Source of the DNA: an archaeon
Lineage (GTDB): Archaea > Nanobdellota > Nanobdellia > Pacearchaeales > GW2011-AR1
Reading direction: 5' to 3'
Assembly (NCBI GenBank): GCA_018653485.1
Contig: JABHZE010000002.1
Location: 1-56,293, forward strand
DNA: 56,293 nucleotides
Each line of letters begins with the position of its first letter. Within the stretch, counting starts at the first letter, position 1. Positions 7,579 through 32,001 of this stretch are shown here, piece by piece. Both the position numbers and the translations under genes were made by a program. Under the pieces are notes generated by a model that saw nothing but the letters and a program-made list of their open reading frames with translations, was not told the origin of the DNA and did not search any database.

Positions 7579-8397
7579 TCACAAATTATCTAACGGATTC
7601 TTAATCCCTTTAACTTGCTCTTGACTTATATGAGTATATATTTGTGTCGTAGCAATACTGCTATGACCCAAAAGGAACTGTATCTTCCTCAAATCAACTC
7701 CTGCATCTAATAAATGAGTTGCAAATGAATGACGAAGAGTATGAGGATGAACTGATTTTTCTATACCTGCATTTTGAGTAGCTTTTTGAACTATCTTTTG
7801 AATATTTCTAGTAGTTAAAGGCATTTCTTTTGAAAACAAATAAGTCCAATCTGAATTTCTTTTAATAAATTTATCCAAATTTTTAGAAAGTTTTTTAGAT
7901 AATATAAACATTCTATCTTTCTTTCCTTTTCCTTCTCTAACCCACCCCATATTTTCAGAAAAATCTAAATCAACAGGTTTAATATTAACAACTTCAGAAA
8001 CACGCAAACCAGAAGAATATAACATTTGCATAATTAATTTACTTTTCAAAGTTTGAGAAGCCTCAATTAAATTAATAACTTCTTGTTTTGTTAAAACAAC
8101 TGGAATTTTTTTATCAGCTTTAGGCCTTTTAATACCCGCAGTAGGATCTTTTCCAAAAATACTAATATAAGCAAATTTAACAGAAGCTAAAAATAATATC
8201 ACAGAACTAGAAGCTCTTTCAGACATTTTCTCAGCTAAAAAATATTTCACATCATCTGATTCAATTTCTTCAGGATTTTTTCCAGAAAAATCTAATAACA
8301 ATCTATTGAATTCAATATAATTTCTCAAAGTATATGGAGACAATTTACCTATTTTAATTTCTGTTTCAAGTTTTCTTAAAAATTCCTCTCTTTCCAT
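7579..8397 (-). CDS. xerA: XerA-type tyrosine recombinase
   Basis: I start at the ATG at 8397 because TATATAAA is centred 25.5 bp upstream. The longer frame uses GTG. The 272-residue protein has an N-terminal SAM-like DNA-binding domain (about 1-90) and a catalytic domain with the full tyrosine-recombinase set: Arg132 (SSGLRVSEV), Lys in GKGKKDR (about 157-160), His219 and Arg222 (HTLRHSF), His245 (LLGHSS) and Tyr254 (IYTH). Archaeal XerA resolves chromosome dimers at dif. A role in integration at tRNA 3' ends is only a possibility suggested by the repeats elsewhere in the window. It is divergent from the operon at 8489. Confidence 0.92.
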   Translation of the reverse strand: MEREEFLRKLETEIKIGKLSPYTLRNYIEFNRLLLDFSGKNPEEIESDDVKYFLAEKMSERASSSVILFLASVKFAYISIFGKDPTAGIKRPKADKKIPVVLTKQEVINLIEASQTLKSKLIMQMLYSSGLRVSEVVNIKPVDLDFSENMGWVREGKGKKDRMFILSKKLSKNLDKFIKRNSDWTYLFSKEMPLTTRNIQKIVQKATQNAGIEKSVHPHTLRHSFATHLLDAGVDLRKIQFLLGHSSIATTQIYTHISQEQVKGIKNPLDNL

Positions 8398-8418
8398 ATA
8401 TTTAATTGTGCGAACCCC

Positions 8419-8426
8419 TATATAAA
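8419..8426 (-). promoter_or_regulatory. TATA box of xerA
   Basis: TATATAAA (plus-strand reading) is centred 25.5 bp from the ATG at 8397. This decides the start codon. Confidence 0.7.
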
Positions 8427-8459
8427 GATTCACAAAATATCCTTTACATTGATATAGTC

Positions 8460-15506: not shown

Positions 15507-15573
15507 ACACTCGCAGATTGTTAATTTTGAAAGATAATTTGTGTTTATAAATGTTGTTATAGTCTCAAAAAAT

Positions 15574-15596
15574 ACAGGGAACAGGATTCGAACATG
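15574..15596 (-). repeat. second copy of the tRNA-Leu(AAG) 3' end
   Basis: In tRNA orientation this segment repeats the T-arm and acceptor 3' strand (ACATG, TTCGAATCCTGTTCCC, TGT), lacking two G residues and with two changes at the very end. A 17-bp core is identical to the tRNA. It lies 99 bp beyond the tRNA 3' end. Its 3' strand could still pair with the tRNA's 5' acceptor strand using G-U pairs. Confidence 0.85.
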
Positions 15597-15695
15597 TGAG
15601 CGTTCGTAAGAACCGAACAGCCAGAGAATTCTCCAAATTCTCTGGACATACAACTCGGTATCAAAAAGAGAGTTGTAGGGTGAGAATCTAAACAT
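15597..15695 (-). other. hairpin-rich insert downstream of tRNA-Leu(AAG)
   Basis: This 99-bp segment lies between the tRNA and the repeated 3' end. Three stem-loops fill it: GTTCG/CGAAC (about 15602-15618), CCAGAGAATT/AATTCTCTGG (15621-15630/15636-15645) and ACAACTC/GAGTTGT (15650-15656/15670-15676) with loop GGTATCAAAAAGA on the plus strand. The last two have counterparts in the insert after tRNA-Arg (31363-31443), with the 13-nt loops agreeing at 11 positions. There is no coding potential. Confidence 0.75.
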
Positions 15696-15778
15696 GCGGG
15701 GAACAGGATTCGAACCCATGTAGGCACTAAGCCAACACGACCTTAACGTGTCCCGTTTGACCACTCCGGCATCCCCGC
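15696..15778 (-). tRNA. tRNA-Leu (anticodon reads AAG)
   Basis: The 83-nt gene folds as a type II tRNA: acceptor GCGGGGA/TCCCCGC, D stem CCG/CGG with GTGGTCAAA, anticodon stem ACACG/CGTGT with loop TTAAGGT, long variable arm TGGCTTAGTGCC, and T-arm with TTCGAAT. The variable arm and D-arm match the tRNA-Leu at 30709. The 7-nt loop gives anticodon AAG, so position 34 is A. That is unexpected in archaea, which normally use GAG. CCA is not encoded. It sits between rpo3 and rpl18e in the ribosomal block. Confidence 0.88.
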
Positions 15779-15838
15779 AGTATAATAAATTATTAAATCA
15801 AACAATTATAAACTTATCCCCTAAGAAATCAAACCAAT

Positions 15839-30492: not shown

Positions 30493-30531
30493 TTTTGTTT
30501 TAGATATTTTAGTTTTTATTAATATTAAGAT

Positions 30532-30643
30532 GAGACAACTCGTAAGCTTCACTTCCTCACGGAAACTAATACAAACAACATAGCCTGCTTAACTTCTGAG
30601 TTCGGAATGGTATCAGGTGTGACCAGACTATTATGGTCGTCTC
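30532..30643 (-). rRNA. rrf: 5S ribosomal RNA
   Basis: In minus orientation the sequence begins GAGACGACCATAATAGTCTG and has the conserved loop-B region CCGAACTCAGAAGTTAAGC and the complementary ends GAGAC/GTCTC. At 112 nt the ends are approximate by a few bases. It is isolated, with no 16S or 23S gene nearby. Confidence 0.93.
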
Positions 30644-30708
30644 AATAATACCTAAAAAAGACACTTTATAAAGCTTTTTATACCTCTAATTATTACCATT
30701 TTTAGCAT

Positions 30709-30791
30709 GCAGAGGTTCCAGAGTGGTCAAATGGGCAAGACTCAAGATCTTGTGGCTTAGTGCCTTCGTAGGTTCGACTCCTACCCTCTGC
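30709..30791 (+). tRNA. tRNA-Leu(CAA)
   Basis: The 83-nt type II tRNA has acceptor GCAGAGG/CCTCTGC, D stem CCA/TGG, anticodon stem CAAGA/TCTTG with loop CTCAAGA (anticodon CAA), variable arm TGGCTTAGTGCC and T-arm GTAGG/CCTAC. CCA is not encoded. The 3' end is repeated 128 bp downstream, together with 12 bp of trailer. Confidence 0.95.
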
Positions 30792-30803
30792 ATATTTTAT
30801 TTT
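30781..30803 (+). repeat. 23-bp direct repeat at the tRNA-Leu(CAA) 3' end, copy 1
   Basis: The last 11 bases of the tRNA (CTACCCTCTGC) plus the following 12 bases are repeated perfectly at 30920-30942. Confidence 0.95.
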
Positions 30804-30919
30804 GCCAAAGGCAAAATAGTTCAGATAATAGGTAGGAATTTGAACCTAAAGGTTCGACGAGCAATTTAACTTTTAGGGGTTTCAAAAGGTATTCAGGGTG
30901 GAAAGTGGAATTGGGAGCA
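30804..30919 (+). other. insert between the tRNA-Leu(CAA) 3'-end repeats
   Basis: The 116-bp segment has no ORF. It contains a stem-loop that begins in the repeat (ATTTTGCC/GGCAAAAT, 30799-30806/30810-30817), an inverted T-arm-like sequence GGTAGGAATTTGAACCT (30831-30847; close to the reverse complement of the tRNA's own T-arm) and GAACC/GGTTC around TAAA. Parts therefore look derived from the tRNA itself. Confidence 0.7.
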
Positions 30920-30942
30920 CTACCCTCTGCATATTTTATTTT
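30920..30942 (+). repeat. 23-bp direct repeat at the tRNA-Leu(CAA) 3' end, copy 2
   Basis: This is the second perfect copy of 30781-30803, just before the 3' end of the membrane-protein gene at 30949. Confidence 0.95.
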
Positions 30943-30948
30943 TTAAAT

Positions 30949-31230
30949 TCATCCACATAAACTAAAAATCCCTTTTTGTAATAAAAATAAACTTACCAAT
31001 ATTACAACAAGATTAGGCATCTCCACACTTGTAGAAGATAATATTATTAATCCAACCCCAATATCTAAAAAACTTATCACACTTAATCCATAAATAAAAA
31101 TAATTCCCTTTACCAATAAAACTAGTCCCATGATTAAAATCAATTCTTGAATTCCCACCCCCAAAATCCCAAATACCCAAAAACAAATTCCTATTATAAT
31201 ATCCAAAACACCTAATATTTTTATTATCAT
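30949..31230 (-). CDS. small membrane protein (93 aa)
   Basis: Nearly the whole protein is hydrophobic, with three or four membrane helices (MIIKILGVLDIIIGICFWVFG, ELILIMGLVLLVKGIIFIYG, VVILVSLFLLQKGIF). No motif is recognised. It lies between tRNA-Leu(CAA) and tRNA-Arg. Confidence 0.55.
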   Translation of the reverse strand: MIIKILGVLDIIIGICFWVFGILGVGIQELILIMGLVLLVKGIIFIYGLSVISFLDIGVGLIILSSTSVEMPNLVVILVSLFLLQKGIFSLCG

Positions 31231-31284
31231 TAAAATAACCTAATGCATAGCTTTTTTAAACTATCTGCCCATTCATTTTTAGAT

Positions 31285-31357
31285 GCCCAGGTAGTTCAAC
31301 TGGATAGAATACGTCCCTCCTAAGGACGGGGTTGCAGGTTCGAGTCCTGCCTTGGGC
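31285..31357 (+). tRNA. tRNA-Arg(CCT)
   Basis: The gene folds with acceptor GCCCAGG/CTTGGGC (one G-U), anticodon stem CGTCC/GGACG with loop CTCCTAA (anticodon CCT) and T-arm GCAGG/CCTGC. It is 73 nt and does not encode CCA. Fourteen bases spanning its 3' end are repeated at 31444-31457. Confidence 0.95.
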
Positions 31358-31362
31358 GTTTA
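31349..31362 (+). repeat. 14-bp direct repeat at the tRNA-Arg 3' end, copy 1
   Basis: TGCCTTGGGCGTTT covers the last nine bases of the tRNA and five bases beyond. It recurs exactly at 31444-31457. Confidence 0.9.
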
Positions 31363-31443
31363 ATAAACAGGACTTGTTCGAGTCATCTTAAACTCGATAT
31401 CAAAAAAAGAGTTTAAGAATCAGAGAATTAGAAATTCTCTGAT
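31363..31443 (+). other. hairpin-rich insert downstream of tRNA-Arg
   Basis: The 81-bp segment contains GACT/AGTC around TGTTCG, then CTTAAACTC/GAGTTTAAG (31387-31395/31409-31417) with loop GATATCAAAAAAA, then AATCAGAGAATT/AATTCTCTGATT (31418-31429/31433-31444). The last two match hairpins in the insert behind tRNA-Leu(AAG): the loop agrees at 11 of 13 positions on the plus strand, and the arms share CAGAGAATT/AATTCTCTG. There is no ORF. Confidence 0.75.
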
Positions 31444-31457
31444 TGCCTTGGGCGTTT
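31444..31457 (+). repeat. 14-bp direct repeat at the tRNA-Arg 3' end, copy 2
   Basis: This is an exact copy of 31349-31362, 81 bp beyond it. It partly overlaps the last base of the AATTCTCTGATT hairpin arm. Confidence 0.9.
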
Positions 31458-31480
31458 TAATTTTACAGGGATTACAAATA

Positions 31481-31488
31481 TTTATATA
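31481..31488 (+). promoter_or_regulatory. TATA box of the HNH gene
   Basis: TTTATATA is centred 25.5 bp before the ATG at 31510. Confidence 0.65.
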
Positions 31489-31509
31489 AGTTGGAAACCC
31501 ATTTTATTT

Positions 31510-31845
31510 ATGCCTTACAAAGACCCAGAAAAAAGAAGAGAATGTAGAAGAAGATGGTATAAGAATAATAAAGATAGTGAGAGGGCTCATATTTATCGAA
31601 GGAAAAAAGAAATTAAAAAATGGTATAAAGATTATAAAAAAAATTTAAAGTGTGAAAAGTGTAGCGAAAATCATATAGCAACATTAGACTTTCATCATAA
31701 AAATAAAGAAGACAAGGAAGATCAAATTCCTTATTTAGTTCGTGGAGGATATTCAATTGAAAGAATTAAAAGAGAAATAAATAAATGTCAAGTTTTATGC
31801 GCAAATTGCCATAGAAAAGAGCACCATAGAACCCAAAACATTTAA
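31510..31845 (+). CDS. HNH endonuclease-like protein
   Basis: The 111-residue protein has a very basic N-terminal half (PEKRRECRRRWYKNNK, KKEIKKWYKDYKK) and a C-terminal HNH domain: structural CEKC, catalytic-type DFHHKN and CQVLCANCHRKEHH. This resembles small phage- and intron-associated HNH nucleases. It lies between tRNA-Arg with its 3'-end repeat and tRNA-Gly, and has its own leaderless promoter. A link to mobile DNA at the tRNAs is possible but not shown. Confidence 0.85.
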   Translation: MPYKDPEKRRECRRRWYKNNKDSERAHIYRRKKEIKKWYKDYKKNLKCEKCSENHIATLDFHHKNKEDKEDQIPYLVRGGYSIERIKREINKCQVLCANCHRKEHHRTQNI

Positions 31846-31871
31846 AAAACTATCAAAACTACTAAAAATAT

Positions 31872-31941
31872 GCGCTGGTGGTTTAGTGGTAGAATCATTG
31901 CCTTCCAAGCAATTGGCCCGGGTTCGAGTCCCGGCCGGCGC
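31872..31941 (+). tRNA. tRNA-Gly(TCC)
   Basis: Acceptor GCGCTGG/CCGGCGC (G-T allowed), anticodon stem ATTGC/GCAAT with loop CTTCCAA (anticodon TCC) and T-arm CCGGG/CCCGG identify tRNA-Gly. It is about 70 nt, with CCA not encoded. Eleven bases spanning its 3' end recur at 31991-32001. Confidence 0.95.
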
Positions 31942-31946
31942 ATTTT
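31936..31946 (+). repeat. 11-bp direct repeat at the tRNA-Gly 3' end, copy 1
   Basis: CGGCGCATTTT covers the final six bases of the tRNA and five following bases. It recurs exactly at 31991-32001. The repeat is short, but its position matches that at the other three tRNAs. Confidence 0.7.
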
Positions 31947-31990
31947 AATCCCAACCTACAATAAGCTACAAAATGGGCAGGTCGGATAGG

Positions 31991-32001
31991 CGGCGCATTT
32001 T
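31991..32001 (+). repeat. 11-bp direct repeat at the tRNA-Gly 3' end, copy 2
   Basis: This is an exact copy of 31936-31946 after a 44-bp insert that has no ORF and no strong hairpin. The promoter region of secF follows. Confidence 0.7.

Follow-up and report, generated by a model that had tools for sequence, protein, structure and literature searches.

tRNA genes of the window and their repeated 3' ends

The stretch of archaeal DNA considered here (the window; 56,293 nucleotides) carries four intact tRNA genes, and each of them is followed by a second copy of its own 3' end (Table 1). An earlier note on this DNA had claimed such copies for every tRNA of the window and described the inserts as free of ORFs; both statements are confirmed, the former for four of the four genes at nearly identical coordinates. 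The repeat pairs of tRNA-Leu(CAA) (23 nt, exact), tRNA-Arg(CCT) (14 nt) and tRNA-Gly(TCC) (11 nt) have the lengths reported before, whereas the pair of tRNA-Leu(AAG), put earlier at about 23 bp, is 29 nt long at 86% identity with an exactly matching core of 17 nt. In the same order, the copies lie 116, 82, 44 and 93 nt apart; the second and fourth distances replace the earlier values of 81 and about 99 bp. The unit behind tRNA-Gly(TCC) is the least convincing of the four.

In the Leu(CAA) unit, the 5' arm of hairpin H1 consists mostly of the repeated flank, and the flank of the distal copy continues as TTAAATTC without a hairpin. Hairpin H3 is laid out as GA, a 5' arm (30861-30873), a 3' arm (30902-30914) and the right-end motif GAGCA (30915-30919). 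Hairpins similar to those of the Arg(CCT) unit occur at tRNA-Phe and tRNA-Gly(GCC) of the same genome, and the Leu(AAG) unit is 88% identical over 60 nt to the unit at tRNA-Leu(TAG) elsewhere in the genome.

A 5S rRNA gene (30530-30644, minus strand) is located shortly before tRNA-Leu(CAA) and is separated from the tRNA-Ala gene, which precedes 23S rRNA-like sequence on the same genome. A small ORF of 111 aa (31510-31845), conserved behind tRNA-Arg(CCT) in several Pacearchaeota, has CxxC and HH/CxxCH motifs; it looks HNH-like by eye and has no Pfam match. The SecF protein encoded beside tRNA-Gly is up to 73% identical to proteins of Candidatus Pacearchaeota genomes.

Table 1. tRNA genes of the window, copies of their 3' ends and parts of the intervening units
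Feature	Position	Strand	Basis or detail
tRNA-Leu(CAA), intact	30708..30793	+	ARAGORN and Rfam RF00005
Leu(CAA) proximal copy, tRNA 3' end and flank (CTACCCTCTGCATATTTTATTTT)	30781..30803	+	exact repeat
Leu(CAA) hairpin H1, TATTTTGCC-AAA-GGCAAAATA	30798..30818	+	inverted repeat
Leu(CAA) unit, segment antisense to host T-arm (GGTAGGAATTTGAACCT)	30831..30847	+	sequence
Leu(CAA) unit, sense copy of T-arm 5' half (AGGTTCGAC)	30850..30858	+	direct repeat D2
Leu(CAA) unit, class I hairpin H3	30859..30919	+	stem covaries across 22 units
Leu(CAA) distal copy, tRNA 3' end and flank	30920..30942	+	exact repeat
tRNA-Arg(CCT), intact	31284..31359	+	ARAGORN, Rfam; proximal copy 31348-31361
Arg(CCT) unit body	31362..31443	+	T-arm fragment GTTCGAGTC 31376-31384; hairpins 31386-31418 and 31418-31444
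Arg(CCT) distal copy of tRNA 3' end	31444..31457	+	exact repeat
tRNA-Gly(TCC), intact	31871..31943	+	ARAGORN, Rfam; proximal copy 31936-31946
Gly(TCC) short unit (44 nt) and distal 11-nt copy (31991-32001)	31947..32001	+	repeat
tRNA-Leu(AAG), intact	15694..15779	-	ARAGORN, Rfam; proximal copy 15687-15715
Leu(AAG) family A unit body	15594..15686	-	hairpins 15621-15645 and 15649-15677
Leu(AAG) distal copy of tRNA 3' end, decayed (86%)	15565..15593	-	repeat search

Occurrence, anatomy and fold of the units

The genome to which the window belongs (G000; 930 kb in 6 contigs, 86% complete) was represented by 32 tRNA genes, a 33rd, sub-threshold match being excluded. Copies were counted as exact matches of at least 11 nt to the last 22 nt of a tRNA within 250 bp downstream. 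The scan of all tRNAs proposed in the earlier note bore the pattern out, with strict copies behind 13 of the 32 genes compared with 0.005 expected per 32 tRNAs from dinucleotide-preserving shuffles. The upstream 250 bp of the same 32 genes hold no copy and nothing longer than 7 nt. At tRNA-Gly(TCC), tRNA-Ala(TGC) and tRNA-Asp(GTC), the copies are short or depend on the 3' flank; with these weaker cases, about 16 of the 32 genes are occupied. As a rule for all tRNAs, the claim therefore stands for the window and falls for the genome. At 50% occupancy, four of four arises by chance in about 6% of cases, and, since about half of the G000 tRNAs are occupied, the window is a favourable local sample, i.e., luck inside a real pattern. 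A lack of repeats at other tRNAs had been named as an outcome that would tell against the claim; it applies to the other half (about 16 of 32), which is the pattern expected of a patchy element.

Within the genus, a sample of 159 tRNAs, drawn almost entirely from 17 further genomes, included 26 with a downstream copy of 10 nt or more. Occupancy differs between these genomes (0/13 in G002, 4/15 in G003, 5/17 in G001 and 5/11 in G013). A few cases also occur in other families and orders outside the genus. Wider samples gave genuine ones at L056, L061, L062, L063, L071, L224, L225 and L302, and L193 and L194 are genuine cases from other families of the same class; the out-of-genus rates are upper bounds because the 10-nt threshold admits false positives in wide samples (L281 lies inside an ORF, L299 is an apparent intron-containing tRNA that follows). 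Farther from tRNAs, within stretches of 5-20 kb, no convincing copy of a tRNA end was found. In several near-complete genomes of the same class (e.g., G062, G064, G088 and G089), no more than 5-9 tRNAs exceeded the Rfam score under the stricter filters, which suggests that many of their tRNAs are interrupted or unusual.

The inserts are 18-303 nt long (median 107, typically about 50-150) and contain no ORF. In the direction of the tRNA, the fullest units start with the tRNA and its flank (about 8-20 nt), followed by hairpin H1, a segment antisense to the T-arm, a sense copy of the 5' half of the T-arm, hairpins and the repeated tRNA 3' end with its flank. The tip of H1 is often GCAAAGC-like, and its 5' arm can be the flank itself, the 3' arm then being antisense to the flank (Leu(CAA) of the window, L104, L225). 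The body has one to four hairpins, the flank hairpin is present in many units, and the repeated 3' end usually includes part of the flank. Three classes of right end are found: GARYA before the copy (class I, with bodies flanked by GA and GARYA), TCACAT or CGGAT before GTTC, and a hairpin ending in TCTGA directly before the copy. The duplication varies in length from about 11 to 40 nt.

The class I stem, taken from GA to GARYA in 22 units, is 94.7% paired (219 Watson-Crick, 31 G-U and 1 A-C), compared with about 66% for shuffled 3' arms and 46-55% for slid versions; the H3 arms were placed by eye with the flanking motifs as guides, a procedure that raises pairing overall but hardly a bias of G-U over A-C. 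With shuffled 3' arms, the ratio of G-U to A-C is about 37 to 15. In all stems of 52 units, G-T and A-C pairs stand at 55 to 18 (expected 54-56%; p = 0.0009). Such a bias speaks for folding of the tRNA-sense strand. The folding molecule would most simply be RNA co-transcribed with the tRNA, with a single DNA strand as the alternative. No Rfam family matched the units at its gathering score, and below it only chance-level matches were seen.

Away from its tRNAs, the same genome has a pair of structured repeats that are nearly identical and about 190 nt long (L089, G000 C3:198382; L092, G000 C6:64694). The hairpins of their inner loop are of the two types found in the tRNA units (AGAGAATT..AATTCTCT and TTCAACTC-TCTTTTTGATAAC-GAGTTGAA). 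They match no Rfam family and could be a new RNA or element.

The antisense segments match their hosts. Over 52 units, the antisense match to the last 25 nt of the own tRNA has a mean score of 16.1, compared with 12.5 for other tRNAs (p = 2e-8). In related Gln units, a host with CCGGTTC (G000) goes with the segment GAACCGG, and hosts with CAGGTTC (G010, G133) go with GAACCTG. Thus, part of the unit is copied from the host or kept complementary to it, which is poorly explained by the simple insertion of a fixed sequence.

Insertion at tRNA 3' ends and competing explanations

Empty sites for the Arg(CCT) unit are present in G008 (L138) and in the isolate ARS1126 (L068), where an intact tRNA is followed by the homologous flank and no unit. 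In the window, the distal copy at this gene is followed by GCGTTTTAATTTTACAGGGATTACAAATATTTATATAAGTTGG, which leads into a small gene. Since the homologous flank stands directly behind the tRNA in both species, the distal copy marks the place of the old tRNA end, and the 96-bp piece comprising the unit and one copy is extra. The earlier note had proposed a comparison with close relatives; empty sites were found for this one tRNA in two species, neither of them close (flank identity 72-78%). The comparison suggests insertion on the scale of different species and not within one.

The orthologous tRNA-Gln(CTG) genes of G000 and G010 carry unrelated unit families, with homologous sequence beyond them. 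tRNA-Gln(TTG) of G000 is followed by two different, unrelated units, one after the other, so that GGGTGGGGCTAT is present three times. Identical tandem units were found at Leu(CAA) in L071, Leu(TAG) in G013 and Gln(TTG) in G012, where the G013 array enters assembly Ns and the G012 contigs end inside the array. Distal copies are decayed at Leu(AAG), Leu(TAG) and Asp, the tRNAs themselves being intact. Related bodies stand behind different tRNAs in 11 pairs, each with a host-specific 3' end; shared bodies include those of Asp/Glu (83% over 65 nt), Cys/Leu(TAG) (78% over 74) and Gly/Cys (74% over 102). Insertion relative to other species, patchiness and the sharing of bodies are thereby shown.

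The favoured reading, at roughly even odds (about 0.5), is that the units form one family of miniature elements of Pacearchaeota, non-autonomous and with tRNA 3' ends as their insertion sites. This reading draws on copies far above chance in many independent genomes of the genus, empty sites, bodies shared between tRNAs, tandem units, independent occupancy of orthologous tRNAs, the covarying stem and the decay of distal copies while the tRNA stays intact. Neither a transposition event nor a circle nor an enzyme was observed; this, the variable duplication length, the lack of terminal inverted repeats common to all families, the host-matched antisense segments and the distance of the species with empty sites count against it. 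Among the readings offered in the earlier note, a miniature tRNA-targeting family is therefore the best fit, and remnants cut down from larger elements are disfavoured because the bodies are recurrent covarying hairpins and not random leftovers.

Insertion would open the 3' region of the tRNA over a segment that runs from the T-loop/T-stem to as far as about 20 nt downstream, both sides ending with the intervening 11-40 nt. Duplication on both sides would keep the tRNA functional, and the new copy of the tRNA end would be a further target, giving tandem units. The folded strand may be what is recognised, most likely as RNA from tRNA read-through, and the enzyme presumably acts in trans. It is tempting, if rather unlikely, to see the units as a mobile structured RNA that inserts by base pairing with the host T-arm, each copy being fitted to its host. 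If true, this would be a new form of RNA-guided or tRNA-primed insertion, without an obvious integrase, transposase or Cas1 partner.

Alternatively, a structured RNA trailer behind the tRNA might be selected for a role in tRNA processing or in the control of expression, or as a small RNA in its own right, and be spread by conversion. The conserved fold of the tRNA-sense strand, as expected of a functional trailer, and the position of the units directly behind tRNAs in the same sense agree with this. Against it stand the patchy occupancy (0/13 tRNAs in G002), the fact that a given tRNA can carry different unit families, the decay of distal copies and the amplification in tandem, and the explanation appears unlikely. 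Duplication in place, for which a doubtful case can be made, would need no mobile element: palindrome-driven template switching at the T-arm during replication would leave sense-antisense-sense copies beside the tRNA, and similar bodies would come from gene conversion between tRNA loci. It would account for the better antisense match of units to their own host than to other tRNAs (p = 2e-8), for the 5' arm of H1 being host flank folded back (Leu(CAA) of the window, L104, L225) and for the variable duplication length. However, hairpin bodies unrelated to the tRNA recur at several tRNAs in several genomes, and the covariation of the class I stem with its strand bias is unexplained by copying errors.

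Descent from tyrosine-integrase elements, as internally deleted, attP-only derivatives or scars moved by integrases in trans, seems distinctly improbable. Integrase elements bring their own tRNA 3' end in attP. In the units, a given body occurs with the 3' ends of different tRNAs, each specific to its host, an outcome that integrase recombination could reach only by spoiling the tRNA, and the tyrosine-recombinase mechanism implied in the earlier note is unsupported. Nevertheless, integrase ORFs directly behind tRNAs are common here. In G000, tRNA-Glu(TTC) has the integrase at C3:313668 immediately behind it, and integrases also lie near tRNA 3' ends in six further genomes of the genus (G002, G003, G005, G008, G011 and G012). 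G012 has, at its tRNA-Gln(CTG), the left half of a class I unit (97% over 31 nt), and after it come a HepT-like gene and an integrase of 400 aa. A decayed 3' (right) arm also seems present there, so the unit may be older than the element. In blastn searches, the tRNA flanks of eight other integrase loci had no convincing match to the units, and with the possible right arm in G012 this leaves the integrase link suggestive only. In length, the copies are comparable to the short att sites of thaumarchaea (median 17 bp; PMC6563490).

The integrase behind tRNA-Glu(TTC) (348 aa; L202 17452-18498, G000 C3 near 313,500) is a tyrosine integrase, starts about 60 bp behind the tRNA and probably belongs to a classical integrated element. 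Other integrases of G000 lie at C4:140279 and, in the window, at 7579-8433.

An origin from Cas1 or casposons was rejected, as Cas1 was not found in G000 and the duplication length is not fixed; with G000 86% complete, the absence is not proof, and Cas1 was found in only 1 of 15 genomes of the genus. Mobility by reverse transcriptase was likewise rejected. The only reverse transcriptase detected in G000 is that of a diversity-generating retroelement (DGR), adjoining an 88-nt template/variable repeat pair (1046-1133 / 619-706), and none was detected in G003, which has units. An archaeal bulge-helix-bulge intron in the T-arm was rejected as well, no matching motif being seen by eye at class I junctions. 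A search of IMG/VR for viral carriers with two exact unit-body patterns gave no match.

The DGR occupies positions 268-2225 of the window, with a target ORF (268-858) holding the variable repeat, an Rfam RT-16 RNA (905-1043), the template repeat and an RVT_1 gene (1158-2225). Its two repeats differ mostly at template A positions.

Comparison with known systems

The 3' ends of tRNA genes are well known as insertion sites of elements of kilobase size. Occupation of roughly half the tRNA genes in a small archaeal genome by short non-coding elements of one family, each copy with host-specific sequence, would be a new use of these sites; no description of such units was found in the open-access literature searched (subscription papers were not covered). 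In an uncultured lineage, such units would bear on how tRNAs are annotated and how their trailers are processed, and would provide a clean system for how a short structured nucleic acid inserts without an enzyme of its own.

MITEs and short palindromic repeats are short, non-coding, hairpin-forming and multicopy, lack their own enzyme and have terminal direct repeats. The units share all of this, with many copies per genome, but they stand strictly at tRNA 3' ends, have long, variable duplications and conserve their fold on one strand. Terminal inverted repeats across the family are absent, the class I inverted-repeat stem being internal and the unit ends differing between classes. A duplication of fixed length is expected of a DDE transposase or Cas1; that of the units varies (about 11-40 nt). 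As to an autonomous parent transposon, one integrase locus (G012) shares the left half.

Casposons insert with target duplication, and some use tRNA genes. The units resemble them in both respects and differ in the absence of detected Cas1 from G000 and in the unfixed duplication length. With SINE-type retroelements the units have in common a short structured body, a variable target duplication and a tRNA connection. We know of no LINE-type partner for the units, and no partner reverse transcriptase capable of retrotransposition was detected in G000, where the enzyme is that of the DGR, or in G003, where none was detected.

The nearest likeness in target is to the tyrosine-integrase elements: a tRNA 3' end is used, an intact tRNA stands on one side and a partial copy at the far end of the insert, and tandems are possible. 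The features that matter most for membership among known tRNA-integrated elements are not those of the units, as the inserts hold no integrase gene and are not tied to a single target tRNA end (related bodies at Asp/Glu, Cys/Gly/Leu and others). Archaeal tRNA-integrated elements with tyrosine integrases carry about 9-23 kb (PMC9897764). Thus, known elements measure kilobases and have their own integrase, whereas the units are gene-free pieces of about 20-300 bp, structured and with host-matched antisense, in which one body serves many tRNAs with host-specific ends.
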